A stretch of DNA of 29,093 nucleotides from positions 1,330 to 30,422 of the IMG/VR virus record IMGVR_UViG_3300037847_000211. One strand, written 5' to 3'. The DNA comes from a virus. Under the pieces are notes generated by a model. It saw only the letters and a list, made by a program, of their open reading frames with translations. It did not search any database and was not told the DNA's origin. A program made the position numbers and the translations under genes. Positions 2,533 to 18,621 of this stretch are shown here, in pieces. Position 1 is the first letter of the stretch; each line of letters starts with the position of its first letter.

Positions 2533-2969
2533 TGCAACTAGACTTGTTTGTTCTTGAGGAACAGTATAATATACTCGAAGGGGATGAGTTACAAACATGC
2601 AAGGTCTGTCAAAAAGAAAAACCCCTACACCTATTTCCAAAAACCATAACTAATAAGTCAGGTTATGACACTAGGTGTAAGGGCTGTATAAGAAAACAAA
2701 GTAAGTTAAGAGATGAACTAAGAAAAGTTCACGGACATAAGAAGACAGACTTCTGTGATTGCTGTGGTCAACGCTCACACAAAAGCCTAGTCATAGATCA
2801 TTGCCATGAAACACTAAAGTTCAGAGGTTGGTTATGCGAACAGTGTAATCACGGTATCGGTAAGCTTGGTGATAACTTAGAGGGTGTAAAGAAAGCAGTA
2901 GAGTATCTAGAGAAGTCTAATTATATTCGACCTACTGCATCCTCTGCTTCTTTGATGAACTCTGCGTAG
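2532..2969 (+). CDS. Recombination endonuclease VII-like (T4 gp49 family) junction resolvase
   Basis: The 145-residue protein matches the endonuclease VII fold. C75-x2-C78 and C102-x2-C105 form the structural zinc site (C23/C26/C58/C61 in T4). DHCH at 89-92 and N106 directly after the last cysteine correspond to the T4 catalytic D40, H41, H43 and N62. The enzyme cleaves branched DNA such as Holliday junctions, which in T4 is needed before packaging. The N-terminal 55 residues add a second cysteine set (C23xxC26 and C49xxC52) in front of the catalytic part, probably another zinc knuckle. The last 49 bases run into the end of the opposite-strand late block, so its C-terminal residues (about PTASSASLMNSA) overlap another gene in antisense. 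Family call firm; role in this phage inferred. Confidence 0.88.
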   Translation: MQLDLFVLEEQYNILEGDELQTCKVCQKEKPLHLFPKTITNKSGYDTRCKGCIRKQSKLRDELRKVHGHKKTDFCDCCGQRSHKSLVIDHCHETLKFRGWLCEQCNHGIGKLGDNLEGVKKAVEYLEKSNYIRPTASSASLMNSA

Positions 2970-5900
2970 CGCATAAATAATTCTAGTTCTCTGAAGTTAA
3001 GATCTTCTAGCTGTCCAGTGATGCCATAGTCACGCTTCAACATCTTCAAAGCTTCTCTTCTAGTTTCTTTGTTAAACTTTCGAGTGGCTTTTACTGCGTT
3101 GTTTAATACACGTGCGTCATATCCAGCGTAACCTCCCTCCATACTCTCTCGTACTCTGGCCTTAACGTCAGACATTCTTTTCTTTAGCATACCTCGTTTC
3201 TGCTTTATGCTTGCTTCTTTAAATCTAGGATTATCTAGTAGTTCTTGTGTGTAAGTCTCAAGCATAGGAGCTAACATACCATTAAAGATCTTGTCATAGG
3301 CAGGTATGTTTGTTCTCTCACTAGCTTTCCAGTCAGCCATGTCAGCCATAGAATATACTTTTTCTGTAGCTGTTCTACCCGGTTTTATTGTTAAGCCAAA
3401 CATACGTGCAAAAGGATTGGGATCGTATATCTCTCCCTCTCTGGTGGCTACTTCTAATTCTTCACCTGTTATACTATCTATCTTACCAAACAATGCTTCT
3501 ATTATGTTGTCAACATATTTGGTAGCAGTTTGTGAGAATGCATTGATACCTTCTGCTTGACGCACATCTTTAGCTGTGTCATTGCCCAGCGCCATACCGA
3601 CAGCTTTGTTAACTACATCTACTGGTCTAGTAAAACCTGCAGCAAAGTTACCAGTTACTTTATACAAACCATCTATAGCTGCTGCTCTCTTGTCTATGTC
3701 TACGTTAGTCAACACATCTAGTATATTATTTATGTCGTTGGCAAACTGTGCATCACGTGCAAGCTGACCGACAGCTAACTGTGTGCCTATCTCTCTTTGT
3801 AAGTCTGCTGATACTTGCTCACCATTTCTCATGGTGTTCAGCACTCTACCTCCAGCAAGCCATAGAGAGAATGGGTATGTGTTCTTGGCATCTACAATAG
3901 TACCACCGCCTACGTCTACTTCATATACACCTAGACCTTGCTCTCTTCTTTCGTTGTCATACTGCATAGACATCATCAATGCTGTGTTGCCTACAAGATA
4001 ACGAGCAAAGGCATCCATCTCTGTTGCTTCAGGGTTTTGCTTGAACATGGTTCTACCAAACCTAAAGAACTGTTCTGGTGTAGACAGGAATGACCACTGA
4101 TAAGCTGTAGCTACAACGTTGTTGAAGAACCTACCGAATGGTAGAAGTGTACCAAAACCTGGAGTGTTGGAAAAAGTTTCAGCCATCTTAGCAGCAGTCC
4201 TTAATAGTTCTGGTTGCTCTGTAGTTGTGTAGTCCTTCGAAAATACAGACTTTAGTGTACCATCCAGCGCACCTTGGATAACCTCTAGTTCAGGTTCATC
4301 CCCTGCTATCATAGCTTCCTTCAAACTTTTACCTTTGTTTATACGCATGTACTTATCCATCTCAGTCATAAACATCTGAGACTTAGTAAAGCTATCTTGT
4401 ATACGTACACCAGATATGTTAGCTGCTGCGTTAGCACCAGCCTCTATGTTTCTATACAGCTTGTTGTTAGGATCAATACCAAATCTTTCTGCGTTAACTT
4501 CTACACCACCTGACATAGTTTCAAATAACTTCTTACGTACCTGCTCATTGTTAGCATCATTTAAGAAACGCATGTACGCATCGTGTGTAGTGTAGGGGTC
4601 TAACAAGTTCCTGAACTTCTGTGCCTGTACTTGTGTGTAAGCACGTGCCTGTCGCATTGTAGTTCGAGCAGCATTCGTATCATAAGTTGATTGAGCTAGT
4701 GCTTTAAAACTTAGCAGACCAAAGTTAAACAAGTCAGCCATAGTCTGACCTACGTAGTACTGAGCAAAGCCAGCAACGTTGATCATGGTAGTGGCAGGAG
4801 ATGAAACAAGTAAACGTTTCCATACAGACTGTCCGTACTTGAGAGGCTGTGACTTATTCATCTTGTCTACTTCTTCAGTAGCCTCTGCTATATCATCCTC
4901 TAAAGTTTTCTTGGCCTTATCTCCAGCAGCTACGATGCCTGAGTTAACAATGTTCTTTGTCTGTGACAATACATTAAGTATTTTACCTGCTTCACTAGAA
5001 TCTTTTGACAGTAGATTTGTTAAGTCAATACCCTTAGTATCTCCTATCTCACCTAGTGTCAGATTTGTGTACTTACCCATAGCCTTGTTGATCTGTATCA
5101 AGTCTTCTTCAGGTAGGAATCTAACTACATTAGTTACTACATCTGCTGTTAATTTTTTAGAGTGTATCTTCATACCTCTATCATGCATCAGCCTTGCTAG
5201 TCCACCCTTACCGTCTGTTCCTAGCATTATAGTAGAGAACAAATCAGATGGCATGACAGCAGCTTCTAGTTTTAATCCCTTGTCTACCTTTTCATTCCAT
5301 GCTTCGATGTCTGCTAACATTTGTTTAGTAACTTTTTTACCATCTTTCCTAGATAGTATGGCTGAGTTATTTTCTATTACAGTCTTAGCAATATCTCCTA
5401 ATGTAGATTCAGGCTCTTGAAGTTCTGATACTCCACGAAACTTACCAAAGCCTAGCTGTGCTGCACCTGCTACACCACCTAACAAGGAAGAGAAAGCTGT
5501 TTGTGTTTTACTGTACTGCTCCTGTGCGCCAGCTTCCATCAAAGTGTTCTGTGCTAGAGAGTCCTGTAGCATAGCAAATCCTGCATCACCTACTAGTGTT
5601 GCCTTTAACGCTGTGCCACTTGCTTTATCAAACAACTCAGCTTGCTTTCTTTGCATAGCATTTTGTATTACGTTTCTGCGTCCTTCTTTGGTAACCTCTT
5701 GAGTAACCTTTTCTGCTGCTTTCTTTGACTGGTTCTTAGACAGTCCAGATCTTGCTGCTTTTCTAGCGGCTTGCATTGCAGCTTTCTCTGCTGCCTTTCT
5801 AATTTGTGACGCACTCTTACCATCTCTTGCAGCTTGCAGTCCTGCTCTCTTCACTGCGTCTTGTATAACTTTCTTACCTGCCAGTGAGTAACCACCTGCA

Positions 5901-6379
5901 AGAAACCTACCAAGACCACCAGTAACTAAACCTAAATAGTTTGTTGGGTCTTTAGCTGCAGCAAAGATGTAATCTTTTACACCATCAACAGCACCCATAG
6001 CTCCATCATTCTGAAACACATTACCTAGCTGTTCATATATCTGATAAGCTTTACCAGCCGTGTCTTTTGTTCTTTGGCTTGCTTTGTTTATAAATCTAAG
6101 CTCACCTGTGGTGCTTACAGAATTAGCATTGAAGTATCTCATGTGTTGTACAAAGTCATCAACAACTTCTTCAGCACTTTTATCTTGGTAATCTACACCC
6201 TTACGTTCTATCATGTAAGAACGAATAGGAGTTAAATACTCATACTTTAAAAGATCATCTTTCTTCAACGTAGCATTCTTATCTATGTAGAAGTCTTCTT
6301 CTCTTTCAGGTAAAGTAGAAGTAGAAGAACCCTTATAGAGTTCTTGCATTCTTCTTTTAGCTTCTAGGTAGTTTGCCAT
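2921..6379 (-). CDS. Large internal virion (ejection) protein, 1152 residues
   Basis: This is the last and largest gene of the late block. It starts 1 base after the stop of the previous gene. The protein has no recognisable lysozyme or protease motif. It is mostly helical, with a strongly basic Lys/Ala/Arg-rich part at residues 168-245 that contains an imperfect duplication (SxSQIRKAAEKA versus SKNQSKKAAEKV). Hydrophobic stretches lie near residues 148-168, and the middle has features seen in large podovirus internal proteins (FTKSQMFMTEMDKYMR, LPFGRFFNNVV). Size, position after adaptor and nozzle genes, and composition fit the gp16-like internal core protein ejected into the host with the DNA. 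That role is inferred from context. The gene ends inside the coding region of the convergent endonuclease. Confidence 0.7.
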   Translation of the reverse strand: MANYLEAKRRMQELYKGSSTSTLPEREEDFYIDKNATLKKDDLLKYEYLTPIRSYMIERKGVDYQDKSAEEVVDDFVQHMRYFNANSVSTTGELRFINKASQRTKDTAGKAYQIYEQLGNVFQNDGAMGAVDGVKDYIFAAAKDPTNYLGLVTGGLGRFLAGGYSLAGKKVIQDAVKRAGLQAARDGKSASQIRKAAEKAAMQAARKAARSGLSKNQSKKAAEKVTQEVTKEGRRNVIQNAMQRKQAELFDKASGTALKATLVGDAGFAMLQDSLAQNTLMEAGAQEQYSKTQTAFSSLLGGVAGAAQLGFGKFRGVSELQEPESTLGDIAKTVIENNSAILSRKDGKKVTKQMLADIEAWNEKVDKGLKLEAAVMPSDLFSTIMLGTDGKGGLARLMHDRGMKIHSKKLTADVVTNVVRFLPEEDLIQINKAMGKYTNLTLGEIGDTKGIDLTNLLSKDSSEAGKILNVLSQTKNIVNSGIVAAGDKAKKTLEDDIAEATEEVDKMNKSQPLKYGQSVWKRLLVSSPATTMINVAGFAQYYVGQTMADLFNFGLLSFKALAQSTYDTNAARTTMRQARAYTQVQAQKFRNLLDPYTTHDAYMRFLNDANNEQVRKKLFETMSGGVEVNAERFGIDPNNKLYRNIEAGANAAANISGVRIQDSFTKSQMFMTEMDKYMRINKGKSLKEAMIAGDEPELEVIQGALDGTLKSVFSKDYTTTEQPELLRTAAKMAETFSNTPGFGTLLPFGRFFNNVVATAYQWSFLSTPEQFFRFGRTMFKQNPEATEMDAFARYLVGNTALMMSMQYDNERREQGLGVYEVDVGGGTIVDAKNTYPFSLWLAGGRVLNTMRNGEQVSADLQREIGTQLAVGQLARDAQFANDINNILDVLTNVDIDKRAAAIDGLYKVTGNFAAGFTRPVDVVNKAVGMALGNDTAKDVRQAEGINAFSQTATKYVDNIIEALFGKIDSITGEELEVATREGEIYDPNPFARMFGLTIKPGRTATEKVYSMADMADWKASERTNIPAYDKIFNGMLAPMLETYTQELLDNPRFKEASIKQKRGMLKKRMSDVKARVRESMEGGYAGYDARVLNNAVKATRKFNKETRREALKMLKRDYGITGQLEDLNFRELELFMRYAEFIKEAEDAVGRI

Positions 6380-6380
6380 A

Positions 6381-7889
6381 CTAGTCCTCTAATCCAAGCA
6401 TTATTTCGTATAAGCCTATAGGAAGTCCTGTCATAGTATCGTGGGTTCCTCCATACGTAGCATCCCAGTACTCAGCTTCAGTAACCTTTCTAAATTTTCC
6501 AACGTTACGAACACCAAACTGATTGTAAGAGGGTAACTCTTTAGTTTTTTCTCCACCTTCAGGAGGTCTTGGTGGAGCCATAATAACTTTACCACTTTCA
6601 GGATCTACCTTACCTTCATAATCTCTATCCCAGCCTACTCTCTTAGCATTAAACCTACTTGGTCTTGTTGGAAAAGTCTTATTCAGTAACGCTTCTTTCT
6701 TTTCTTCTACGCTTACTTCTACTTCTTCGACTCTTTCTTCTGGAGGTAACGCCGTTTCTTGATTAGTTGTATCGGACGTTTCCGTTTCGGTAGTTTCTTG
6801 GGTTTGTTCTTCTTGATTTTGTTCTGTGTTGGGAGGTTGTTCGCTAGACGGTTCAGGTTGTGACTCCTCTGGTTGTTCTTGTTGGTTAAAGTTTTTGATT
6901 AATTCTATCTCTCCGTTTACCCAATCTTCTCCCATAATTCTCTTCATTATATTTACGGAAGGTTCGTGATCAAACAAGCCAGTCTCTCCATACGTACCAA
7001 TAGCACCTTCTATAACTGACATAGCCGTTTCTACAATTATTAACTCTCTTTGGTCTGCTTCAGCGTCACGGAATGTTCTGTTTAGTCTTTTCTGTTCTTC
7101 TATCCACTCCTGATCTTCAGGTTTTTCTGATCTCATTTTTTCTGCAAATGCCTCACCTGCTGCTTGAATCCTAGCTTTAGCCGCTGGGGTATTTGCTGCT
7201 TCCGTTTCTATTTCAACTAAATCTTTTAGAAACTTACTGGCTGATTCTGGTCCATAAAATTCTTTATCAAAGAAGTTAACACCCAAGTTAGGAAACAATG
7301 AATTGTATTCTGATTGTGCAGCAAGTTCGTTGATATCAGCTATAGACATACCACCCACAGCCTTTGTGTCCTGTAACTTTTGCTTTGCTTGATCCATAGC
7401 ATTTACACCAAACAGAGTGGCAAGTACACTATCACTTGTTTGTACATCTGCTGGTCTAGTTCCGGGTTTTGTCTTAGCACCATACTGTATCTGAGCAAGT
7501 TCATTAAGGTTCATGTCTATATAATCAGGATTAACCTCAAACACTTCAGGCATATCTATGATAGCTTCTACATCTGATGGACCTAGTGTGCTTATACCTT
7601 TTTGATTAGCAGCAGCTAGAAGTTTATCATAGAAAGTTTTTATGCCCAGCGCACCAGAACCCATAGCAGCCATGACTTGCTCTTTAGTAGCACCTAGCTC
7701 CATAGCTTTTTTACCTAGCTGACCATACTCACTTGCTAGTAAAGTTCTATCAGCTATGATTTTTCTGTTAGCCTTTGCAAGTTCTTCCTGCTCGTCTTCG
7801 TACTCTTTGGCTTCTTCTTTTCTTTCTCTGATGCCCTCTGTTTGTTTATCCAAGAAGGCTGCAGCAAATGCTTTCCAATCAAATCCCAT
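6381..7889 (-). CDS. Putative internal virion protein with acidic low-complexity segment, 502 residues
   Basis: The N-terminus (MGFDWKAFAAAFLDKQTEGI) is followed by a highly charged helix at residues 18-50, likely a coiled coil. Residues about 336-398 are a low-complexity Glu/Gln/Thr/Ser segment, probably disordered. The C-terminal 100 residues (from about 405) look folded and contain THDTMTGLPIGLYEI. No enzymatic motif is seen. It sits between two other members of the internal-protein group with gaps of 1 and 4 bases, so it probably acts with them in the head or in the DNA-ejection channel. I recall similar N-termini in other marine phages but cannot give a family name. Confidence 0.6.
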   Translation of the reverse strand: MGFDWKAFAAAFLDKQTEGIRERKEEAKEYEDEQEELAKANRKIIADRTLLASEYGQLGKKAMELGATKEQVMAAMGSGALGIKTFYDKLLAAANQKGISTLGPSDVEAIIDMPEVFEVNPDYIDMNLNELAQIQYGAKTKPGTRPADVQTSDSVLATLFGVNAMDQAKQKLQDTKAVGGMSIADINELAAQSEYNSLFPNLGVNFFDKEFYGPESASKFLKDLVEIETEAANTPAAKARIQAAGEAFAEKMRSEKPEDQEWIEEQKRLNRTFRDAEADQRELIIVETAMSVIEGAIGTYGETGLFDHEPSVNIMKRIMGEDWVNGEIELIKNFNQQEQPEESQPEPSSEQPPNTEQNQEEQTQETTETETSDTTNQETALPPEERVEEVEVSVEEKKEALLNKTFPTRPSRFNAKRVGWDRDYEGKVDPESGKVIMAPPRPPEGGEKTKELPSYNQFGVRNVGKFRKVTEAEYWDATYGGTHDTMTGLPIGLYEIMLGLED

Positions 7890-7893
7890 ATTA

Positions 7894-8424
7894 CTAACCT
7901 TTCGCCATCAAGCCTTTGGGCTTCTCTTCTTCTGGTGTGTCTTCTTCCTCTGGCTGTTGTTCAACCAACTCACTTAACATTCTCTTTCCGGGATCTGTGC
8001 CATCGTCAGGATTATCTTTTAGATATGCACCCACTAAAACTTGGAAACGTTGTAGCTCTTTAGCCTCTGCTTCCTTCTGATAATCTCTACCATCATCTGA
8101 AACCTCAACGCCTACGCTTTTGATAGCTTGCTTCAAGAACGTGTGGATAATAGGTTTGACTAGCATACCTACATCTACAGAGTGTAGACCATTCATGTTA
8201 CCTGCGCTTACTATGGTATCTACTATGGGCTTGAGAGATAAGCCTGTCTGACATACAGCAGCAAGATCATCTATTACATCTTGGTTAGCCATGTTGCCTA
8301 TGTAGAACATGGTAACTTCTTCTACGTCTGACATCTGCGCTGGCTGTTCCCAAGGATTATTCTTAGGTTCACCTGTCAAAGACTGACCCGGAATTGGTTG
8401 ATCAAATATAGCTATTGTTGTCAT
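7894..8424 (-). CDS. Conserved phage protein of unknown function, 176 residues
   Basis: The protein starts MTTIAIFDQPIPGQSLTGEP and continues NNPWEQP, a Pro-rich leader that I remember from marine phage genomes as a conserved hypothetical. The middle (residues about 35-110) is helical, and the C-terminus is a Glu/Pro-rich charged tail (EEEDTPEEEKPKG), probably disordered. It is embedded among internal virion proteins, so a virion or assembly role is likely but not shown. No catalytic motif or membrane span is seen. Confidence 0.6.
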   Translation of the reverse strand: MTTIAIFDQPIPGQSLTGEPKNNPWEQPAQMSDVEEVTMFYIGNMANQDVIDDLAAVCQTGLSLKPIVDTIVSAGNMNGLHSVDVGMLVKPIIHTFLKQAIKSVGVEVSDDGRDYQKEAEAKELQRFQVLVGAYLKDNPDDGTDPGKRMLSELVEQQPEEEDTPEEEKPKGLMAKG

Positions 8425-8433
8425 TTTGTTTTC

Positions 8434-8880
8434 CTACTTAGTAAATCCTGCACCAAAGTATAAGCCTACGATAGCTGATACTATGTGTGTATCTAGTGGT
8501 GTTATTACAAATCCTTGTGCGTACTGCCACTTAACTACCTCTTCACCTGCTCCAAAGATAAAGTCGAGGAAGCCTACCTGTATCTCAGTGTAGCCTACAT
8601 ATACGCCTACTTCTGGATAGAATACAGCAACCAACTTTGGCAACACTATTATAGCAAAGACTGCAGATAATGCAATAAGTCTTCTTGTCCATGCGAAATG
8701 TTTATCTGTCTTTCCAGCGTTACGTGCGTCAGCTACAAAGCTTGCGTTAGCATTGGCACGTTCCAAGAGCATCTTGTTCTGCTCCTGTTTCATCTTCATG
8801 CTCTGCCCCCATATGGACATCACTCCACCTAGTACGGTAGAGCCAAGCATTGTTATTAGTTCTAGTGGTAATCCAAACAT
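8434..8880 (-). CDS. Membrane protein, holin-like candidate, 148 residues
   Basis: Three hydrophobic segments are visible, at about residues 5-24, 67-87 and 131-146. Between the first two is a charged helix (KMKQEQNKMLLERANANAS), and WTRRL comes just before the second. It starts with a 1-base overlap (TAATG) with the LysM protein gene. Three spans and the position directly after a putative cell-wall hydrolase suggest a holin, which would open the inner membrane at lysis. It could equally be a membrane protein used in DNA entry, because its other neighbours are ejection proteins. I recall similar proteins in marine phages without assigned function. Confidence 0.55.
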   Translation of the reverse strand: MFGLPLELITMLGSTVLGGVMSIWGQSMKMKQEQNKMLLERANANASFVADARNAGKTDKHFAWTRRLIALSAVFAIIVLPKLVAVFYPEVGVYVGYTEIQVGFLDFIFGAGEEVVKWQYAQGFVITPLDTHIVSAIVGLYFGAGFTK

Positions 8881-10751
8881 TATTTGTTTCCATATTTATT
8901 TGTTAGGTATTCCGCAGCCTCTCTACCAAACGAAAGTTCTGATCCAAGTGTATCGTTAGGTGCGCCGGGATCAACAACACCTTCCGAAGTAGTTCCATGA
9001 GGGGGTATTATAGTTGTAGGCAAATCTTTAAAAGCATTATAATATAAGTCAAAAAATTCTTCTTTATGCTTGTTAACTATGTCTACCATTTTTTTATCTT
9101 CATGAAAGAAAGGTTCAATGTGTATTACATTTGGGTGTCCTCTTTTATTCATGGTTTTTGATTTTATACCCTTATCATTATAACTATACTTTCTAGGTTT
9201 ATAGCCTCCATACCCTTTGTCATTTGCAAATTTTATTACAGAGTCAATATATTTTTGTGCAGCATCAAAGTAAATATTTCCTGGACCTGCTTCATAAACC
9301 CAGTCAGGAACAATAACTTCTACACCCCTGCCTCCACCACCATTGTAATCCATAGATAATAAAGGAGTTGATCCATATACTAATTGGTTTGGATAATCAT
9401 TTCTGTTGCCTGTTCCTATATTTAACTTACCCTCTTTTACTGGTGTAATTGTATTAGTTACAACTTCTGACACAACTGTTTCTGTAGCTGCTCCAGCTTG
9501 AGGCAATTTTATTGTGTCTCCTATTTTTAAATTGTCGTGATCTATATTAGGATTGGCTTCCTTCATTTGAGATAAAGTAAAGCCTTTTTCACGTGCTATC
9601 TTAGATAAGGTATCACCTTTCTTTATCTTGTATTGTTTTGATCCTAAACCAACTGCAGATTGTATTTTTTCTTCGTCTGTCTCAACACCAATGCCAACTG
9701 CTGCAGCAGCCTCGTTAAACTTTCCTTCTCTCATAAGCTTAAAAGCTTTAACAAAGTCCATAGTGGAAGCATCTGCACTAGCTGGCTGTGCTTGTTCATA
9801 CAACCTGTACCTATCTCTTATCTTTTCTTTTTCAGCTTCAGGTAATCTTTCAAATTCAATACGTGCTTTTTCTATGCTTCTTTCTGCTTCTATTTTATCT
9901 CTAAGATCTCCCACTGCAGTTTGTTTTTTCACAGGTACTTTTATTACTTGACCTTTTTCTATTTTACCAAACGGATCAGCGACTGCATCAGGTATATTAT
10001 TTAACTCTCCTAGTTCTTCAAGAGTAACCTTCTGACTATTAGGTTTACCTGCATTTAAAGTATCTAATACAGTGAGTAAAGATTCACCTTCGCTAACAGT
10101 ATACTCTGCAGTTGTAAGAAAATCAGAAGGAGGAATCATTGCCTCAGAGAATATCCTAGTCATAGGGTCCATGTTAGCTGGTGACTCTGGTAGAACAGGG
10201 GGTATAAGTTCCTTAGTAGGATTACGGAAAGAGTTACGTAATACACCAAACATATTTAGGCTAGGGTTGTCTGTGTTTACACCAAACATATTCATAGTAC
10301 TATCAGGCATAACAGCACGTCTATCCCTATTAGGGTTGTTATCTACAAAAAGGTTAGATGTGTCAGGAGTGTAGCCTCTAAATAGTGGTCCTTGATACAC
10401 TCTTTGCCCATCTACTATTACATCCTCTGGTTCATCAGCACCAAAGTTACGCAATGTAGTAACAGCCCTGTCGTACAACTTAGCTACAATACCTTTGCTT
10501 TCATACTCATCTCTGTTGGGATTGTTATCTGCCCCACTGTCATCTGTACCAAAGTTAAAAGTAGGTTTAGAGCCTAGACCTCTTGAACTACGTTGTGCAG
10601 GATCTGGTTCGAACCCACCAAGAGAAACAGATTTAGATGGCTTAGACGTATTCTTTTTAGTAAAGCCTTTTGGACCTGCAGTTTTGGTAGTATTACGAGA
10701 GCTACCGTACTGGTCATACATTTGTTTTACAGAGAACTTTGGATCGTACAT
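8880..10751 (-). CDS. LysM-domain protein with C-terminal amidase-like domain
   Basis: I place the start at ATG 10751, one base after the upstream stop (TAATATG), behind a GGGA-type ribosome site. This gives 623 residues. Residues 1-210 are Asn/Pro-rich and contain repeated short motifs (NMFGV twice, DNNPNRD twice). Two LysM peptidoglycan-binding domains follow, at about 217-273 (YTVSEGESLLTV...GQVIKVP) and 373-417 (YKIKKGDTLSKIA...IGDTIKLP), with a charged helix between them. The C-terminal part, about 471-620, has HIEPFF (H544, E546) and PPHG (H585) in a context like phage N-acetylmuramoyl-L-alanine amidases. It probably degrades peptidoglycan, either in the virion during entry or as endolysin at the end. 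LysM assignment is firm; the enzyme class is tentative. Confidence 0.72.
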   Translation of the reverse strand: MYDPKFSVKQMYDQYGSSRNTTKTAGPKGFTKKNTSKPSKSVSLGGFEPDPAQRSSRGLGSKPTFNFGTDDSGADNNPNRDEYESKGIVAKLYDRAVTTLRNFGADEPEDVIVDGQRVYQGPLFRGYTPDTSNLFVDNNPNRDRRAVMPDSTMNMFGVNTDNPSLNMFGVLRNSFRNPTKELIPPVLPESPANMDPMTRIFSEAMIPPSDFLTTAEYTVSEGESLLTVLDTLNAGKPNSQKVTLEELGELNNIPDAVADPFGKIEKGQVIKVPVKKQTAVGDLRDKIEAERSIEKARIEFERLPEAEKEKIRDRYRLYEQAQPASADASTMDFVKAFKLMREGKFNEAAAAVGIGVETDEEKIQSAVGLGSKQYKIKKGDTLSKIAREKGFTLSQMKEANPNIDHDNLKIGDTIKLPQAGAATETVVSEVVTNTITPVKEGKLNIGTGNRNDYPNQLVYGSTPLLSMDYNGGGGRGVEVIVPDWVYEAGPGNIYFDAAQKYIDSVIKFANDKGYGGYKPRKYSYNDKGIKSKTMNKRGHPNVIHIEPFFHEDKKMVDIVNKHKEEFFDLYYNAFKDLPTTIIPPHGTTSEGVVDPGAPNDTLGSELSFGREAAEYLTNKYGNK

Positions 10752-10752
10752 A

Positions 10753-12954
10753 TTATTTTCCCAAACCTTTAAATGGGTTAAAGCTAGTGATGTTTCCGAG
10801 GATAATACTTGTTGCGCCTTTAACAAGCTCACCAACAAAATTACCAGCAGCGTTTTCAAGTAATGTTTGTGACTCACCATTAGCTTCTATCTGTGCTTCC
10901 AGTATCTTTGTTGTTCTATCTGCTGCACTCTCACCAGACTGCCACGCCCATGCTAACAGATCTCGCTCTCTTTGTATAGCATTATTATACATTGTTGATG
11001 TGAGATTGTTTGCGGCTAGTGCTGCATCTCTATTAGCTTGGTTGGCTGCTGCGTTGGCTGCTGTAGTAATAGCTTGCGCCCATGCAGCGTTGGCCTGTGC
11101 AACTACAAGGTGGTTCTGTGCGTTGAACTGATCACGTGCATTAGTCTGTGCTGTGTTAAACTGTGCCAGCGCATTTGTTTCACCTGCATTGAAACGGTTG
11201 ATAGCGTTGATCTGCTCTGCGTTAAATCTCTGTACCTGTGAACCAAGGGATCTGAAGAACTGTTCTGTTTGGTTTTGTGATGTAGCGTTAAACTGTCTTG
11301 CAGCATTCTCTGCAGCACCGTCACTAAGTATTGCTTGAGCAGTTTCTTGCGCTCTAATAACTTGCATCTGCTGCTGATTACTTAGATTAGCCATGTCCAT
11401 AGCAAGGAAAGACTGAGCATTCTGTACGTTAGCAGCTTGTCTATTGTTTAGGTTAGTTAAGTCTATCTGTGATAGTGTAGCTGCATCAGCTAGAACTTTA
11501 GCTTGTCTAGCATCTAGGTTAGCTAGGTCTACAGTCTGTGCCATCTTAGCATTCTCTAATGCTATCTGCTGTGCTGCTGTAAAGTTTATGTTAGCTATCT
11601 CTGATATACGTGCTGCATTCTTTACCTTGGCTTGGAACTCTTGGTCAAACTCCATACCCAAAAAGCTGGCACGTTGTTCAGCATTAAGCATAGCTACCTG
11701 CTGTTTGTTTCCTGCATCTATCTGTGCGATAGGTAGTGCTGATTCCATAGCAGCTTGTACAATAGCCATACCTGCCATACTAGAAGCTGACAACCCACGT
11801 GCAGCCATTGCAGAAGCAGCGTTTCTCATAGCACCTGCAGCCCATGATGGTGGATTACCACCTTGGAAGTCTTGCATCAAAGTATCTAACTCAGTCTTTA
11901 CAGATGCTGCTTGGTTCTTTGCTATAGTAGCATCTACCTTTGTCTGATCTACAGTAGTACCATCAACAAGTTGATCTGGTGTTGAGGCTAGTGCATTAGG
12001 AGCAGTTACTGTTTGTGGCGCTCCTAACTGTGCAGCCTGTAAAGATAATGCTGCTGCTGTGAAAGGATTCATTTGTGCAGGATCAACAAGAGAATTAGGA
12101 TCAACACTTCCTTGTGCAGCTAAATAATTATTTAAAGCTGTCTGTAGTGCCATCTGTGATTTATATGCTTCATACTGCGCTGGTGTCATAGCAGCAATTT
12201 CTTCTGCTGTCGCAGCCTGTGGTGCTGTTGTAACTCCTGCCTGTGCTGCTGCTCCTGCCTGACCTGTACCTTGTGGTATCAGTGTTGCAGGGCCACCGTC
12301 TTTTGCTACAACACCTGCTCTAGTTACCATCATGTTTGGATCAGCACCTATCTGTTGTGATAGTAGTGAACCACTTGGCATCATGTTGGCAGGGTTTGCT
12401 GTACCACCTGTACCTCCACCTGTGCTGCCCGGCGTAACTGAACCATCAGGATTTATAATAGTAGTTCCAGCAACAGGTATGTTTCCAGCCCCTCCACCAA
12501 CAGGTATTGTTGAGCTACCTCCAATGCTAGGAAGATTAATTCGTGTACCACCGCCGCCACCGCTACTACTGCCACCGCTGGCATCTCTACCAAATATGTC
12601 TTTACCCATACTATTGTGACTAGCTAAGATTGCATTATGCCTAGCTATTCCTGGATGTACTTTTGGTGCAGAAGGTTTTGTTCCTATTCCCATGTCTGCT
12701 CTTGAAGTACCTCCATCAAACCCTGTGCGTGATTTACCTTTATTCGTGTATCCACCGGGAGCCATGTTTACAGGCTTGCCCTCAACCATCTGTCTAGCTG
12801 TCATAGTGTACTTACCCATCTTGGCTGCTGCTGCAGGACTAGCTGCTAAGAAAGCATTGATAGACTTCTGATCCATTGCTCCATTATACCCTAGTGCTGG
12901 GAGTATTTTGTTTTGCATTGTTTCAGGTTTGAACCCTAGAAATTTCTTAGCCAT
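10753..12954 (-). CDS. Putative ejection protein with hendecad repeats, 733 residues
   Basis: Residues 1-120 are basic and possibly DNA- or partner-binding. Residues 125-190 are a Gly/Ser-rich linker. The rest is Ala/Gln/Asn-rich and helical. From about 453 to 535 the sequence repeats every 22 residues (D-L/M-x-N-L at 476, 498 and 520). From 550 to 621 it repeats every 11 residues, with Phe at 555, 566, 577, 588, 599 and 610, mostly as QFNA or RFNA. Eleven-residue periodicity is typical of right-handed coiled coils and of amphipathic membrane-binding helices. The C-terminus ends in GNITSFNPFKGLGK after a hydrophobic stretch. With its position among internal virion proteins, this suggests a structural protein of the core or ejection channel, comparable in role to T7 gp14/gp15 or P22 ejection proteins. 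I see no homology to those. Confidence 0.65.
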   Translation of the reverse strand: MAKKFLGFKPETMQNKILPALGYNGAMDQKSINAFLAASPAAAAKMGKYTMTARQMVEGKPVNMAPGGYTNKGKSRTGFDGGTSRADMGIGTKPSAPKVHPGIARHNAILASHNSMGKDIFGRDASGGSSSGGGGGTRINLPSIGGSSTIPVGGGAGNIPVAGTTIINPDGSVTPGSTGGGTGGTANPANMMPSGSLLSQQIGADPNMMVTRAGVVAKDGGPATLIPQGTGQAGAAAQAGVTTAPQAATAEEIAAMTPAQYEAYKSQMALQTALNNYLAAQGSVDPNSLVDPAQMNPFTAAALSLQAAQLGAPQTVTAPNALASTPDQLVDGTTVDQTKVDATIAKNQAASVKTELDTLMQDFQGGNPPSWAAGAMRNAASAMAARGLSASSMAGMAIVQAAMESALPIAQIDAGNKQQVAMLNAEQRASFLGMEFDQEFQAKVKNAARISEIANINFTAAQQIALENAKMAQTVDLANLDARQAKVLADAATLSQIDLTNLNNRQAANVQNAQSFLAMDMANLSNQQQMQVIRAQETAQAILSDGAAENAARQFNATSQNQTEQFFRSLGSQVQRFNAEQINAINRFNAGETNALAQFNTAQTNARDQFNAQNHLVVAQANAAWAQAITTAANAAANQANRDAALAANNLTSTMYNNAIQRERDLLAWAWQSGESAADRTTKILEAQIEANGESQTLLENAAGNFVGELVKGATSIILGNITSFNPFKGLGK
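11092..11598 (-). repeat. 22- and 11-residue coding repeats in the ejection protein
   Basis: This stretch encodes residues 453-621 of the 733-residue protein. Three 22-residue units share D-L/M-x-N-L at 476, 498 and 520, with a weaker fourth ahead of them. Six 11-residue units follow with Phe at exact 11-residue steps from 555 to 610. The protein pattern is clear; I did not test how far the DNA itself is repeated. Confidence 0.75.
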
Positions 12955-12958
12955 ATTA

Positions 12959-13207
12959 TTATTTCCCTATTTGCATCCACAGTGATGCTGCAATGAATGT
13001 TATTACTGCTACGGTTGACATCTTTACAATAGTAGACCACACACCTCTGCGTGTATCACGCCACGTTTCCAGTAAGTTACGCATCTCAATTATATCTTTA
13101 CGAGCATCATCATCGTGTAGTCCTACTTCACGTAATGCTGCTGTAGCACCACGCTTGGCTGCACGGTCTAGCATATCTTCTAGTTCTTCTGGTGTGATGC
13201 TAGACAT
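12959..13207 (-). CDS. DUF6127-like small membrane protein, probable holin
   Basis: The 82-residue protein has a charged N-terminal helix with GLHDDDARKDI and LLETWRDTRR, followed by one membrane span at about residues 59-79. This layout and wording match, from memory, the DUF6127 family found in phages and prophages of Alphaproteobacteria. A single span after a charged cytoplasmic helix fits a small holin or pinholin, but holin activity is an inference from size, topology and the nearby LysM protein. It overlaps the previous gene by 8 bases. The alternative holin candidate in this window is the three-span protein at 8434-8880. Confidence 0.6.
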   Translation of the reverse strand: MSSITPEELEDMLDRAAKRGATAALREVGLHDDDARKDIIEMRNLLETWRDTRRGVWSTIVKMSTVAVITFIAASLWMQIGK

Positions 13208-13628
13208 AGCCAGACATATCCTCGTTTGTTACGTTGTGTTCTATAAAAGGCTCACCCTCTGCTACTTGAGAGTCGTAGTATTTAGAAACATCTTTCCATC
13301 TTGCGTAAGATTGTCTCATTTGTGTTACTTTTGTAACTGTGTTAGACTCTGATACTTCTGTGTAATTGTATCCATCATTAACTGAATATACATTATATAC
13401 AGTATCAGAATTACTTAAAGCTTTTATCTGCGTGTCGTTTAAAGGATCTCCAGAATCCCAGCCAACAACATTCCCAGTAGATAACGGAATAATCTTAGGG
13501 TTTATCATAGATTTTACAACACACCAAGTTGTTGGCTTATTATCTAAAACATCTTTCATATTTCTAACTGCATTCTCAACATCAGAAACAGTTTCGTATC
13601 TATTATCTGCGTAAATATATCTACTCAT
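13200..13628 (-). CDS. Hypothetical protein downstream of the glycine-rich adhesin, 142 residues
   Basis: The protein begins MSRYIYADNRYETVSDVENA and is rich in Tyr, Asn, Asp and Thr. No signal peptide, membrane span or known motif is visible. Its start overlaps the stop of the polyglycine adhesin gene by 1 base (TAATG) and its end overlaps the holin candidate. Tight coupling to an adhesin gene suggests a folding chaperone or a minor tail protein acting with it. That is only a positional inference. Confidence 0.5.
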   Translation of the reverse strand: MSRYIYADNRYETVSDVENAVRNMKDVLDNKPTTWCVVKSMINPKIIPLSTGNVVGWDSGDPLNDTQIKALSNSDTVYNVYSVNDGYNYTEVSESNTVTKVTQMRQSYARWKDVSKYYDSQVAEGEPFIEHNVTNEDMSGYV

Positions 13629-14602
13629 TATGTGCTTCCATAAATTGTACCGCTGTTAGACAAAGTGCGACTTGTTCCTGATATAGCTGCGCCACCAGAC
13701 CCACCAGCATCTCCTCTGTTTCCACTGCCTCCCGAAGCACCCCAGCCGCCGCCTCCACCGCCGCCTTCGTGAACACCAGAGTTAGTTCCAGCATTTCCAC
13801 CAGAACCACCTTGTAATCTACTGTCATTACCGCCATTATGTAGACCGCCAACGCCGGGTAAAATACGGCCACCACCACCGCCACCAACGTTACTTCCTTT
13901 AAAGCCGCCGCCACCACCAGCACCACCTCCGTAAGCACCTGTTTGTGATGAATTGTATTTGTTGTAGCCTCTTCCACCAGTACCATTTAATACGCCACCA
14001 GTACCACCGTTAGCATAACCGTTACCGCCAAGTCCTCCAGCACCGCCGCCAGCACCGCCGCCACCGCCAGAGTTGTAATCACCGGGGTCAGAGTGGTCAC
14101 GTCCATGTGCGCCTCCACCACCACCACCTGCAATATACGCCCCAGAGCTATTTGTAATAGTAACACCACTTGCTGTTACATTTATAGCAGGACCACCACT
14201 AGCAGCAGCTTGATAATACCTTCCTCCGACAGCACCACAGCCAATTATTTTTCCATCATTTATAACAGTGCATGATATATCTATAGTTAATGCAGCATGT
14301 GATGTACTATCAGACCAAACCCACATGTTTGAAGGTACACGTAAAGTACCACCAGATGAAATATAGTCTGATGCTGTGATACGTTTTAGTTGAACTTGTC
14401 CGTTAATTTGACTACCACCAGTGGGTAGTGATGTTTCAGCAGACTGACCATAATATTGTTGTATACTTTGACCTGCTCCATCTCCTACATCTATCAACGC
14501 ACGAATGTCAGGGTCATTCAAAGAACAGGTAGTACCACTAGTACCACCTACCTCTACGTGTAAATCATCTAAACTTATAGCGCCGCTACTTTGTAGGCCC
14601 AT
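13628..14602 (-). CDS. Polyglycine-rich tail adhesin with virion-anchor N-terminus
   Basis: The 324-residue protein has three parts. Residues 1-53 (SSGAISLDDLHVEVGG ... SIQQYYGQS) match the short repeat-type module that I know from the N-termini of phage tail and baseplate proteins. Residues 60-155 are beta-rich. Residues 159-304 are dominated by glycine runs (up to GGGGGGG) alternating with short variable loops, followed by a short closing strand. Glycine-rich motifs separated by variable loops are the design of the T-even/S16 gp38 adhesin, where polyglycine II helices pack in a sandwich and the loops bind the receptor. A receptor-binding role is therefore likely. It overlaps the S74 fibre gene by 17 bases and may sit at the tip of that fibre. 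The strong Gly bias also opens shadow frames on the same strand that are not genes. Confidence 0.72.
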   Translation of the reverse strand: MGLQSSGAISLDDLHVEVGGTSGTTCSLNDPDIRALIDVGDGAGQSIQQYYGQSAETSLPTGGSQINGQVQLKRITASDYISSGGTLRVPSNMWVWSDSTSHAALTIDISCTVINDGKIIGCGAVGGRYYQAAASGGPAINVTASGVTITNSSGAYIAGGGGGGAHGRDHSDPGDYNSGGGGGAGGGAGGLGGNGYANGGTGGVLNGTGGRGYNKYNSSQTGAYGGGAGGGGGFKGSNVGGGGGGRILPGVGGLHNGGNDSRLQGGSGGNAGTNSGVHEGGGGGGGWGASGGSGNRGDAGGSGGAAISGTSRTLSNSGTIYGST

Positions 14603-15404
14603 TCTTTAGTTCCTTAATTTCTGCTTGTAATTCTTTTACAGCTTCTATTAGTACACCTACTAGGTTACCATATGCTACAGATAGGTACTGACCTTCTTCT
14701 ACAACCTCTGGCATAACTTGTTGCATCTCTTGAGCTATGACACCTGTGCCACGTTGCCCATCATTAAGTTCACTCTTGTAGTTATAAGTTACACCACGCA
14801 TTTGTGATACTTTGTCAAGCGCACCTTCTATTGTTTGTACGTTTTCTTTTAGTCTTTCATCTGAGAAAGCTGTAACGTTTCCTGTTGCGGTAAAGTTACC
14901 AGATAAGTTGTTACCATTGTTTGATAGATTACCCAGTCCTACTTCTGCAGGTGTATCAACAGTACAAGTAATAACACCACTGCTACTATTATAAGATATA
15001 CCTGTACCTGCAGACAATGCTCCTCTTGCACCAGCGTTAACACCAGCCCCTGTTAAGTTTCCAGCTACACTTAGGTTACCTGTTATTGTAGCATTTTCAT
15101 CTACAGTTAGTGTATCTGTTTTTACTGTACCATCAAAGAAAGCATCTTTGTATTGTAGTGCTGATGTACCTAAGTCTAATGTGTTAGTAGTTTTAGGTCT
15201 TACCTGAGATGCTGTTACAACTAAGTCCTGCGATGGTCCTACCTTTTCAATAGGTGCGCCCTCTGCTGCAGTACCATCGTGGGTGTGACCAGTACTAGCA
15301 TTGAATGCTGACTGTATCTGATTGTACTCATCATTGAAATCATCAGCGTCAATAACACTACCTGTAGCGATGTTAGCTGCTGCTTGTCTTGTATAACCTG
15401 CCAT
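14586..15404 (-). CDS. Tail fibre with C-terminal S74 intramolecular chaperone domain
   Basis: The 272-residue protein starts with a fibre-type N-terminus containing GHTHDGT (residues 39-45), a His motif frequent in trimeric phage fibres. A beta-rich repeat stem follows (LDLGTSALQYKDAFFDG; ATITGNLSVAGNLTGA). From residue 181 it carries a peptidase S74 chaperone: SDERLKENV with S181 and K186, the Ser/Lys pair of the self-cleaving endosialidase-type domain, then GVIAQEMQQVMPEVV and a coiled-coil end (LIEAVKELQAEIKEL). S74 domains help three fibre chains fold and then usually cleave themselves off just before the Ser. The mature fibre would be about 180 residues. It lies 2 bases after the nozzle gene, consistent with attachment to the tail. 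Confidence 0.85.
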   Translation of the reverse strand: MAGYTRQAAANIATGSVIDADDFNDEYNQIQSAFNASTGHTHDGTAAEGAPIEKVGPSQDLVVTASQVRPKTTNTLDLGTSALQYKDAFFDGTVKTDTLTVDENATITGNLSVAGNLTGAGVNAGARGALSAGTGISYNSSSGVITCTVDTPAEVGLGNLSNNGNNLSGNFTATGNVTAFSDERLKENVQTIEGALDKVSQMRGVTYNYKSELNDGQRGTGVIAQEMQQVMPEVVEEGQYLSVAYGNLVGVLIEAVKELQAEIKELKNGPTK

Positions 15405-15406
15405 TG

Positions 15407-17932
15407 TTACTGCCTATCATGTTGTCTGTACTCAAGAACGGCTGTGTCAAGAGTAAAGGTTGGATTTGTTGAGTTGTCTGTAATACGCATTGCTACCGTT
15501 TTAAATGAACCTACTAAGTTTTGTTTATATATTTTATCTAACACACCACCATAGGTAACACCTGAACCACCATACACAGAAGTAGATGCACCGAATAAAC
15601 TAATACCACCACCTGCTGCTGCTGAAGAAACTGTTATAGCTGGAGGTTGTATAACACTTGGATCATTACCTGCATCAAAGTCTATCTTAAAGTTTACGTC
15701 TACATTCATAGTTCCCGTAGGATTTGCATACAGGGTTAGCTTGTACATAGTCTTACGTATCTGAGGATCTGTAATAGGCATAAATGGTGATTCATATATT
15801 GACTCTATTGCACTACCATCAAAAGAGTTACCTGAGTCCATTCTATAACAGAAGCCATCATCATTACCAAACATAATAGTCTCTGTTGCACCTGAGTACG
15901 TACTGTCTGCTACGTTTACCTTTAGTCCTTTAGTAGTAGACCAAGCTATACCGCTACCACCTTGAGCAATAAACTTAGTTGCTATCAATCCTGATGCACT
16001 AGCTGTTTGTACACTAGGTATATATGCAAACAACCTATACTGAGATTTGCCTCTAACTAGCACAGAACAAAACACATCTGTCTGTGATATAAACTCGTTT
16101 GCATCTTTATAGATAGGATCAGAAGCAATATCAAGAGCTAAGTCACCAATACGATCAGTAGCACTTAATAAACGTATACCATCAGGAGATAGGTATGCTA
16201 CGTCACCACCAAATTCCTGTATGCTGTCTGGGTTAATACAGCCTATTCTATCTGTTATAGGTTCTAGTTTAAAGTCAGATGAAGTACTACCTACAAGTTT
16301 TTTTATTGTGTCTGTAGTAAATATGATAAGTTGTTCACGAAAGCCTATCATACCTGTGACATCATGTCCAACGTTTATTGTACCAGCGCCATTACTTGTA
16401 GCAAAATCATCTACTGTGTTAGGTGCTGTAAAGAATATCTTACTACCTTTAGAGTAGAAAGCGTGGTTCTTAAATACTACAACATTCTCTGCACCTTGTA
16501 CATCTGAACTATTAGAAGAGGATAAAGATACTACAGTATTACCACTAGCATTATATATGATAGGATAGCTTTTACTATCTACAAATATTGTTTTATCTTC
16601 TTGTGTAAAATTAAAAGATGCAAACCTGCATTTTAATGTATTAGTAGAAGAGCTTGTACCTATGTGTGACCAAGTGGTTCCTGTACCATGAAAGTATAAT
16701 GTTTTATTTAATTGTGTAGAATGAAACGTACCAAATGTAAGAACAGTATTATCGGATATAGACTGGGCTGAGTCAAGTACAATACTATTTTGATTAGTTA
16801 GTGATGCTACTTTAACAGTACCAGATATGCCTGTGCCTGTAACAAACATACCAGCTTTTATATTAGTAACAAAACTAAGTACGGCATCATCTGCTAAAGA
16901 TACTGCTGTGTCTAGTATAATACTAGTTTGACTTGTTACAGTTTTTACTGTTACATCACCAGTTATACCAGTACCAGTTACAAGCATACCTTTGGTAATA
17001 GTTCCAAATGCTGCACCAGTACCAGCAACGCTAACACCTGTAACTGGACCTTCTGCTAAACCTGTACCTGCTATGGTGGCTCCTGTTATACCACCTGATC
17101 CATCTACTGTAGTTATTGTTATGGTTGCATCGTTAGCTGTAGTAGCCCCATTTAACTGTGTACCAACTACTTTAATTGTTTCACTAGCTGAATAACCTGA
17201 ACCTGCTGCAGTAATCGCTACAGTGTATGTAGTTCCTGTTTTAGTAATATTAAATGTAGCACTGCTACCAGAACCACCATAGCCAGACTGCGTTGGGTTT
17301 GTATATGTGACTGCACTAGAACCAACAGAAGTAACTGTGATAGTTGCGTTGTTTGCTGCTGTAGCACCACCTAAGTTTGCACCAAGTACTGTTACTGTTT
17401 CGTTAACCTTGAAGCCTGTACCTGCTGCATTTATTGCTGCTGTGTATGTACCATTTGTATTTGTTACATTAAAGGTAGCACTTGCACCAGCTAAAGAAGT
17501 AGCACCTGTTACTCCTGTAAAAGTTCTTACCCTATCCACAGCTACTGTGGTGTTATTATTAACAGCACTATTTACTATGGCAGTGGCAGTGTTGTTATCT
17601 AGTGATACTGCTGTAGAATTAGAAACTGCTCCGTTGACTGTAGATGTAGCTGTTTGATATTCTGTTATAGTAGCATTGTCCATCTTTCTAGCTGTGACAA
17701 CTCTACCAGAAGATACAACCTTCATAGCAAGAACTTCACCACCGCCGGGAACTTTTGTATTACTGAACTTGCTATAACCTTTTAACTTACTGTAACCACC
17801 TTCTCTATCAGACTCAAAGTTCTGTAAGATAGTAGCTGAACCTACAGCGTTAATACCCTGTTGTAGTGGAGTAAGGTTGGAGATCAACCCACCTTTGAAC
17901 TCCATAGGGAATGTAGTCCATTGTGTTGGCAT
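15407..17932 (-). CDS. Tail nozzle (tail tubular B / gp12-like) with repeat insertion, 841 residues
   Basis: Residues 1-97 (FKGGLISNLTPLQQG ... ATILQNFESDREGGYSKLKGY) and 403-841 look like the beta-propeller tail nozzle of podoviruses (T7 gp12, P22 gp10 class). Signs are the N-terminal NFESDREGGYSKLKGYS, the alternating strands around LSPDGIRLLSATDRIG, and DNGDDGFCYRMDSG-like blade endings (here FGNDDGFCYRMDSG). The gene directly follows the adaptor gene with a 1-base overlap, the same order as T7 genes 11 and 12. Residues about 98-402 are an extra Thr/Gly/Val-rich segment made of two duplicated beta units that do not look like the core. They probably form decoration domains on the outside of the tail. 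Nozzle identity is by pattern and context; fold prediction would settle it. Confidence 0.75.
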   Translation of the reverse strand: MPTQWTTFPMEFKGGLISNLTPLQQGINAVGSATILQNFESDREGGYSKLKGYSKFSNTKVPGGGEVLAMKVVSSGRVVTARKMDNATITEYQTATSTVNGAVSNSTAVSLDNNTATAIVNSAVNNNTTVAVDRVRTFTGVTGATSLAGASATFNVTNTNGTYTAAINAAGTGFKVNETVTVLGANLGGATAANNATITVTSVGSSAVTYTNPTQSGYGGSGSSATFNITKTGTTYTVAITAAGSGYSASETIKVVGTQLNGATTANDATITITTVDGSGGITGATIAGTGLAEGPVTGVSVAGTGAAFGTITKGMLVTGTGITGDVTVKTVTSQTSIILDTAVSLADDAVLSFVTNIKAGMFVTGTGISGTVKVASLTNQNSIVLDSAQSISDNTVLTFGTFHSTQLNKTLYFHGTGTTWSHIGTSSSTNTLKCRFASFNFTQEDKTIFVDSKSYPIIYNASGNTVVSLSSSNSSDVQGAENVVVFKNHAFYSKGSKIFFTAPNTVDDFATSNGAGTINVGHDVTGMIGFREQLIIFTTDTIKKLVGSTSSDFKLEPITDRIGCINPDSIQEFGGDVAYLSPDGIRLLSATDRIGDLALDIASDPIYKDANEFISQTDVFCSVLVRGKSQYRLFAYIPSVQTASASGLIATKFIAQGGSGIAWSTTKGLKVNVADSTYSGATETIMFGNDDGFCYRMDSGNSFDGSAIESIYESPFMPITDPQIRKTMYKLTLYANPTGTMNVDVNFKIDFDAGNDPSVIQPPAITVSSAAAGGGISLFGASTSVYGGSGVTYGGVLDKIYKQNLVGSFKTVAMRITDNSTNPTFTLDTAVLEYRQHDRQ
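16727..16852 (-). repeat. Repeat B, copy 2, in tail nozzle gene
   Basis: Encodes residues 361-402, beginning GMFVTGTGISGTVKV and ending DNTVLTFGT. The core nozzle sequence resumes directly after it. Confidence 0.75.
16862..16990 (-). repeat. Repeat B, copy 1, in tail nozzle gene
   Basis: Encodes residues 315-357, beginning GMLVTGTGITGDVTV and ending DDAVLSF plus a short tail. It pairs with copy 2 at a period of 46 residues. A weaker related stretch (TAVSLDNNTATAIV) lies near residues 107-120. Confidence 0.75.
17105..17266 (-). repeat. Repeat A, copy 2, in tail nozzle gene
   Basis: Encodes residues 223-276, beginning SSATFNITKTGTTYTVAI and containing VGTQLNGATTANDATITI. It is clearly homologous to copy 1 at protein level but diverged at DNA level. 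Confidence 0.75.
17324..17485 (-). repeat. Repeat A, copy 1, in tail nozzle gene
   Basis: Encodes residues 150-203, beginning ASATFNVTNTNGTYTAAI and containing LGANLGGATAANNATITV. It pairs with copy 2 at a period of 73 residues. Confidence 0.75.
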
Positions 17933-18621
17933 TAGAAACTAACTCTTCTGTCTCTTATATATGGTGTTCTATTTATATTTATTACACGTAAGTCTTTTAT
18001 TTGTTTTTCAAACTTTTCTAAAGCTACACTTGCAGCTTGTGAGTCACCTCTAAACTGATAGGCATAATACATAGCACCATCTACTATAGCAAACCTATAC
18101 TGCTGTGGTAGCGATGGCACATCTAAAGGGTTCTCTAAATCGTAACCCATTGAGTAATATTCATATACTATTGTGTAAGCCTTGTCAGGCACAGGGTGAC
18201 ATATTAGCTCCCTACTAGGTGTACGTACAATAAATTCAGGCACACCACGTATATCTGCACTTGTATTAAACTCATCATCTGCGTACTTCTCCAACCATTC
18301 CTCATATACCATTGACTTTAGTTTTACTGTTCCTGTACCAAGGCTGTCATCTCGCTTTATTCTAAACGAGTTCATGTTGATTGTCTTAGCATCTGTAGGA
18401 TAATAATACTTCATAGACCCTGCAGCTAGTACAAGATCAGACTGTACATGGTTCCAAGGCCACTCAAATTCTTCTTGTTGAATATGTCTTATTGCAGAGT
18501 TAACAGCATCTTTAGCTATACTATAGTAACCAGTAGCTGCTGCAAAGTTTGTAGAAGTTAATGCTACTTCATTTAACCTGTGGTTTATGTCGTTAACTAA
18601 GCCAAGAAAATCATATGCCAT
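17932..18621 (-). CDS. Head-tail adaptor (tail tubular A / gp11-like), 229 residues
   Basis: The protein starts MAYDFLGLVNDINHRLNEV and continues with a helical N-terminal part, AVNSAIRHIQQEEFEWPWN, then PSRELICHPVPDKAYTIVYEYY and a C-terminal helix rich in Lys and Glu. This plan, helix bundle plus beta insert with the WPWN and PVPD landmarks, is what I know from podovirus adaptor proteins that ring the portal and receive the nozzle (T7 gp11, P22 gp4 class). Length fits (T7 gp11 is 196 residues). It is followed, with a 1-base overlap, by the nozzle gene, in the T7 order. Start at ATG 18621 directly abuts the stop of the upstream gene. Confidence 0.78.
   Translation of the reverse strand: MAYDFLGLVNDINHRLNEVALTSTNFAAATGYYSIAKDAVNSAIRHIQQEEFEWPWNHVQSDLVLAAGSMKYYYPTDAKTINMNSFRIKRDDSLGTGTVKLKSMVYEEWLEKYADDEFNTSADIRGVPEFIVRTPSRELICHPVPDKAYTIVYEYYSMGYDLENPLDVPSLPQQYRFAIVDGAMYYAYQFRGDSQAASVALEKFEKQIKDLRVININRTPYIRDRRVSF

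Follow-up and report, generated by a model that had tools for sequence, protein, structure and literature searches.

A 733-residue protein (here called the rod protein) encoded in the window, a 29,093-nucleotide stretch of a 30,422-bp IMG/VR record, was found to carry a domain which lengthens or shortens among its relatives in units of 11 residues. The C-terminal half of the protein is nearly certainly a long alpha-helical rod composed of such units, each of three turns. Its role was assessed from periodicity, comparison of homologues, structure prediction and gene neighbourhood, and the protein is tentatively regarded as a virion-carried, ejected part of a conduit which takes the DNA across the cell envelope, with a probability of about 45%.

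Genome neighbourhood and anatomy of the rod protein

Based on gene content and order, the window matches the HMO-2011-type podophages. The genes for RNR and endonuclease VII point in one direction, while those for tail-tubular A/B-like proteins, tail fibres, the rod protein, a LysM protein and proteins of 148, 176, 502 and 1152 residues point in the opposite one (Table 1). The tail-tubular B-like and A-like genes, which lie upstream of the rod gene, mark a podovirus tail module. The fibre gene bearing S74 is followed by a gene for a protein of 324 residues, the second half of which is very rich in Gly (13628-14602), and just upstream of the rod gene lies that for an 82-residue DUF6127 (PF19622) protein (12959-13207), a possible holin or anchor whose hydrophobic segment is C-terminal. 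Downstream, the LysM gene probably starts at 10751 and specifies about 623 residues, the listed start at 10880 overlapping the rod gene; the apparent N-terminal signal peptide of the longer reading frame is therefore probably an artefact. The 148-residue product is another possible holin, to judge from its hydrophobic segment. The 176/502/1152-type cassette is conserved. Its first member, which begins PIPGQSLTxEPKNxPWExP and ends EKPxGLMAKG, has almost the same distribution among phages as the rod protein and is a candidate partner for it. In CRP-603 the slot held by the LysM protein in the window is occupied by a Hydrolase_2 protein, and in the pelagiphages HTVC103P and HTVC115P (L162:2966-4213 and L087:10938-12188) by a gene whose product starts Lys/Ile/Gly-rich, cationic and amphipathic and has a weak lag-11 signal (z of about 4.5). 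Comparison of the neighbours of the rod protein with PDB profiles returned chance-level matches only.

Table 1. Features of the rod protein and of the neighbouring genes in the window
Feature	Position	Strand	Basis or remark
Rod protein, 733 aa (HMO-2011 gp25 / phage1322_25 family)	10753..12954	minus	similarity and gene neighbourhood
N-terminal helical domain, residues 1-60	12775..12954	minus	conserved FxGFKPE...GKY...QMVEG; AlphaFold2, alignments
Linker, residues 61-340, Gly/Pro/Ala/Thr-rich, mostly disordered	11935..12774	minus	pLDDT mostly 32-60
Most conserved motif, residues 369-410, PxWAxGA...ARGLxxSSxAG...ESALPIAQ	11725..11850	minus	alignments
22-residue (2 x 11) repeat block, residues 411-543, D[LM]xNLxNxQQ + xVxNAQxFLxM	11326..11724	minus	
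Second hendecad block, residues 545-672	10939..11322	minus	hydrophobic face ~150 degrees off first block
Phe stripe, residues 551-616, six (Q/R)F(N)(A) hendecads	11107..11304	minus	
Short C-terminal tail, residues 693-733	10756..10878	minus	
841-aa and 229-aa tail proteins (tail-tubular B-like and A-like)	15407..18621	minus	phrog_5107, phrog_511, phrog_10775, phrog_399
272-aa tail-fibre-like protein, S74-type chaperone domain at end	14586..15404	minus	
LysM protein, directly downstream of rod gene	8880..10751	minus	PF01476, E=1.4e-15
148-aa protein, hydrophobic segment	8434..8880	minus	KD19 2.59; phrog_38283 (function unknown)
176-aa protein, co-conserved with rod protein	7894..8424	minus	
502-aa cassette protein, candidate virion or ejection protein	6381..7889	minus	
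1152-aa cassette protein, candidate large ejection protein	2921..6379	minus	

The rod protein was determined to be the orthologue of HMO-2011 phage1322_25 (43% identity in the alignment), with the significant full-length similarity and the shared neighbourhood that define the HMO-2011 gp25 family. Homologues were found in roseophages, pelagiphages, Rhizobium and Sinorhizobium phages, Vibrio phage CHOED, Aeromonas phage MQM1 and Pseudoalteromonas phage Slicky01, and in every isolate found the product is annotated as "hypothetical" or similar. A homologue in the metagenomic record MW202701 (L160:399-2990) is labelled "huntingtin", evidently a low-complexity mis-annotation. The protein of the window matched no PHROG or Pfam family, and a search of its profile against PDB chains gave no match. 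No account of the protein was found in the mostly open-access literature on HMO-2011-type phages, and the literature searched held no virion proteomics for the family.

Gene order and an orthologous rod protein are common to the window and the HMO-2011-type phages (Puniceispirillum phage HMO-2011, RCA roseophages, pelagiphages, phiM6, CHOED and MQM1), which differ in the length of the homologue and in its N- and C-terminal domains. The N-terminal domain is missing or changed in distant homologues, and the HMO-2011-type N-terminus was matched by four isolate records only. The linker varies freely in length, with 105 distinct lengths covering all residues modulo 11. The most conserved motif directly precedes the rod and includes the invariant or nearly invariant columns P369, W371, A372, R386, G387, S392, P408 and A410. 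The 22-residue block differs in copy number among homologues, and the C-terminal tail is swapped for, or extended by, an S74 or a C[WF]VAREVYG domain in other phages. The latter (C[WF]VAREVYG...W...AP.W), which is not in Pfam, takes the place of the usual tail in HMO-2011 (L081:19266-21383) and in a second locus (L078:2991-5594).

The 11-residue period and the whole-unit length rule

The initial annotation had described an 11-residue period between positions 11092 and 11598, corresponding to residues 453-621. The placement of Phe at residues 555, 566, 577, 588, 599 and 610 and of D[LM]xNL at 476, 498 and 520 proved exact. The context given for the Phe residues, mostly (Q/R)FNA, was correct for (Q/R)F in all six cases, for FN in five and for the complete FNA in four (QFNA, QFFR, RFNA, RFNA, QFNT and QFNA, in order). 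The autocorrelation that it had proposed was run on residue identities from 431 to 690, and only multiples of 11 stood out against shuffled sequences, with z values of 5.6 and 6.4 at lags 11 and 22 and of 3.7 and 6.0 at lags 33 and 44; none of the remaining lags from 2 to 43 exceeded a z of 1.5. There was no heptad signal in the rod. Such dominance of an 11-residue period across several units is that of a hendecad (11/3) repeat, and the periodic stretch, at approximately residues 411-672 or about 24 units, is longer than had been stated. A lag-11 z of at least 6 was seen in none of 763 control ORFs (unrelated, at least 200 residues, from the fetched phage loci), the median of the rod family being 5.3. 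TRF revealed no 11-codon (33-bp) tandem repeat in the DNA of the rod gene, its single array being of 23 bp with a period of 12. The period of the protein is thus not the result of recent duplication, and the pattern is old and has been maintained by selection on the protein.

The spacing is kept in approximately 190 homologues from HMO-2011-type podophages; its loss from homologues had been named as grounds for abandoning the proposal. Among the first 80 loci, the FN pairs are spaced by 22, 11, 11 and 11 residues in most and by some other multiple of 11 in nearly all the rest, and the exact spacing persists down to about 40% identity despite widely differing total lengths. When the homologues were written in rows of 11 starting at LPIA, a single register ran throughout the domain.

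The length of the rod was measured from LPIA (residue 407) to W625 and expressed as the difference from the protein of the window. The first 140 homologues fell into eight classes only (-66, -55, -44, -33, -11, 0, +11 and +99). Loci from genome contigs, which were fetched afterwards and not used in framing the rule, and six of which were inspected by eye in rows of 11, gave classes of -99, -55, 0, +11, +22, +33, +99, +209 and +319. Taken together, all 12 distinct non-zero differences are exact multiples of 11, for which the probability by chance is (1/11)^12, about 3e-13, if the classes were independent; since they share descent, this figure is indicative only. The regions before and after the rod in the 140 homologues have lengths spread over all residues modulo 11 and follow no rule, and 11 residues is therefore the unit of growth and shrinkage of the rod domain, whose insertions and deletions stay in hendecad register. 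The shortest stretch has 119 residues (about 11 units) and the longest 537 (about 49 units), and most of the change lies in how many 22-residue-type units precede the Phe block. The choice of anchor affected a few values. phiM6 and RHph give -66 when anchored on the Trp itself, and one locus (L044) gives 367 from a second Trp match and 11 from the other. With P.WA as the anchor, four homologues give -56, -57 or -67 because the segment before LPIA, which lies outside the repeat, has 36-37 residues in place of 38.

The biased composition of this Ala/Asn/Gln-rich protein and its long low-complexity linker are such as might produce a periodicity by accident. The shuffles, the 763 control ORFs, the exact spacing retained by homologues of as little as about 40% identity and the modulo-11 rule, which held on the later-fetched loci, together exclude a chance or compositional origin, the probability of which is negligible.

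Predicted structure and helix faces

AlphaFold2 was applied to a single chain with an alignment of 44 sequences, and at low confidence (mean pLDDT 53.7) it predicted a helix over residues 526-692, with pLDDT of 70-85 over 570-660, together with shorter helices across 393-522. The N-terminal residues 11-60 had a pLDDT of approximately 67-81. No globular fold, which the initial annotation had taken as an outcome that would count against it, was predicted for the region at this low confidence. Its hendecad reading accordingly gains support from the long helices as well as from the spacing kept in homologues.

For the Phe stretch the hydrophobic moment is significant and has its peak at 99.3 degrees, or 3.63 residues per turn, a height reached by 3 of 500 shuffles. 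For residues 545-672 the peak was at 96.9 degrees (1 of 500); in the 22-residue block a simple hydrophobic moment was not significant. Between residues 526 and 560, where a conserved LSDxAAxNA segment lies, the moment changes direction by approximately 150 degrees, and a kink or turn between the blocks is therefore likely there. There are thus two amphipathic blocks, the L/V stripe of the first (the 22-residue block) lying on a different face of the helix from the Phe stripe. On the pattern of residues, the core would have Phe at an h-like position, Ala, Ile, Val or Leu at an e-like one, with d and a taken by small or polar residues.

Right-handed hendecad coiled coils such as tetrabrachion have 11 residues over three turns and hydrophobic positions of the a/d/e/h type. 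The rod shares this repeat and these types of position with hendecad coiled coils in general; it differs from them in its polar a positions, its Phe at one core position, its two blocks with different faces and its strongly variable number of units.

The initial annotation had offered, as a second option, a long amphipathic helix lying on or inserting in a membrane during entry, comparable to the 11-mers of apolipoproteins or synucleins. The 11-residue period, the continuous Phe stripe and its significant moment are in keeping with such a helix. However, the moment of residues 553-616 is only 0.25 and their mean hydrophobicity 0.15, Lys and Arg are few, the two blocks have opposite faces, and no segment of the protein of the window has a KD19 above 1.3; a membrane helix is accordingly held to be quite improbable. 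With its low charge, its modest moment and its N/Q content (34% in the Phe block), the rod looks, by analogy, more like the tube of phiX174 H than like a helix of the membrane surface.

Possible role in DNA entry

In the proposed conduit, several copies of the rod would pack laterally through their hydrophobic hendecad positions and form a bundle or barrel, straight or with a gentle right-handed twist, in which the faces rich in Asn, Gln and Arg are not taken up by packing. The protein would be carried in the virion, leave it with the DNA and join the conduit which takes the DNA through the envelope (compare the decameric H of phiX174), while the neighbouring LysM or hydrolase products would deal with the peptidoglycan. 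A change by whole units would keep all subunit interfaces in register, and the length could thus be tuned by the number of units without redesign.

The published phiX174 H-tube is a decamer 170 Å long, with hendecads followed by heptads and a lumen lined by Asn, Gln and Arg (PMC7354561). H (PDB 4JPP) resembles the rod in its long helix of consecutive 11-residue repeats, its fixed Gln and its N/Q/R-rich composition, and the transition or kink between its repeat blocks (PMC7354561) recalls that proposed here. In the same periodicity test it gave a lag-11 z of 5.3. The likeness is one of period and composition; no sequence homology between H and the rod protein was found (hhalign probability 0.5%). 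The published coiled coil of H has 121 residues, three hendecads and then heptads, whereas the rod has 11-49 units, and H belongs to an icosahedral ssDNA microvirus, unlike the dsDNA podovirus with its separate cassette. That dsDNA podophages have convergently evolved a length-tunable helical barrel of hendecads, of 11 to about 49 units, as a counterpart of the H-tube is judged rather unlikely.

The initial annotation had also called the protein an ejection-type protein of a podovirus, which its position and anatomy make plausible. The gene lies after the tail genes and beside those for other large candidate virion proteins, as in T7 and P22, whose ejection proteins are likewise podoviral, encoded in a cassette after the tail genes, largely alpha-helical and accompanied by adjacent or included peptidoglycan-active domains. 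Homology to them was not detected. Comparison of T7 gp14, gp15 and gp16 and P22 gp7, gp20 and gp16 with the rod protein and its 176-, 502- and 1152-residue neighbours gave an hhalign probability of at most 0.6% in all pairs, and these known proteins have no 11-residue signal of note (lag-11 z of 3.0 or less).

Evidence for a conduit comes from the length rule, the long helices, the H-like period and the N/Q-rich, low-charge Phe block. The tail module upstream and the cassette downstream also favour it, as do the LysM neighbour, the Hydrolase_2 protein of CRP-603 and a LysM domain inside the homologue of CRP-235, and no C-terminal receptor-binding domain was recognised. MQM1, a podophage with a tail of 9.2 nm by electron microscopy (PMC10410586), has a rod of 185 residues, about 28 nm if continuous. 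The rod therefore cannot simply be the visible tail, and with a tail so short MQM1 needs some route across the envelope. Against a conduit stand the lack of homology to any known ejection protein, the 22-residue block with no significant simple moment, and the longest rod (537 residues, about 80 nm as one straight helix), which exceeds any periplasm unless folded back. The neighbouring genes for LysM and hydrolase proteins may serve lysis, which would likewise count against it.

The S74 (chaperone of endosialidase) domain is normally found on trimeric fibres and spikes. It was identified at the C-terminus of four homologues (CRP-3, CRP-212, CRP-235 and CRP-738), that of CRP-235 (L168:441-2972) also having LysM near its N-terminus; it is absent from the rod protein of the window and from nearly all other homologues. 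A match of the CRP-3 homologue to phrog_6121 was set aside as reflecting at least partly its S74 domain, because the sole match to this family in the record of the window is the S74 region of the 272-residue fibre. The S74 ends suggest trimers and, if a trimer were kept, there would be too few helices for a barrel as wide as DNA. The main rival to a conduit, a serious one which the initial annotation had not considered, is thus a trimeric coiled-coil fibre, whisker or needle outside the virion, of which the rod would be the hendecad shaft, some members trimerising through the C-terminal S74 chaperone and the changes in length being ordinary fibre-length variation. In agreement with a fibre, the rod gene follows the tail-fibre block and the gene of the S74-bearing 272-residue protein, and the shaft differs in length by up to 4.5-fold in quantised steps. 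On the other hand, most homologues have no recognised receptor-binding or beta-structured tip (in the window the protein has neither S74 nor a beta-helix or spike domain), the N-terminal half is long and disordered, the shaft is N/Q-rich and weakly amphipathic, and the published account of MQM1 speaks only of a short tail (PMC10410586). A fibre is therefore considered somewhat unlikely.

The position of the gene in the virion module, and cassette proteins which are alpha-helical or unknown, would also suit an internal capsid core or DNA-organising protein, such as a component of a portal crown or core stack, that forms no conduit; core stacks exist in T7 before ejection (PMC8954989). Since the rod has no charge pattern for DNA binding, and precise quantisation of length between 119 and 537 residues is unexpected in a core of fixed size, this role is improbable.

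A trans-envelope conduit would bear on the passage of HMO-2011-type phages through the host envelope. These phages are characterised in the literature as dominant and widespread in the ocean (PMC9038755). Their tails are very short, and the rod protein is one of their conserved hypothetical proteins. The whole-unit rule is a testable structural statement, namely that the rod consists of straight three-turn helical units in a fixed register, and the rod lengths provide a natural series which can be correlated with the dimensions of host envelope, fibre or channel.
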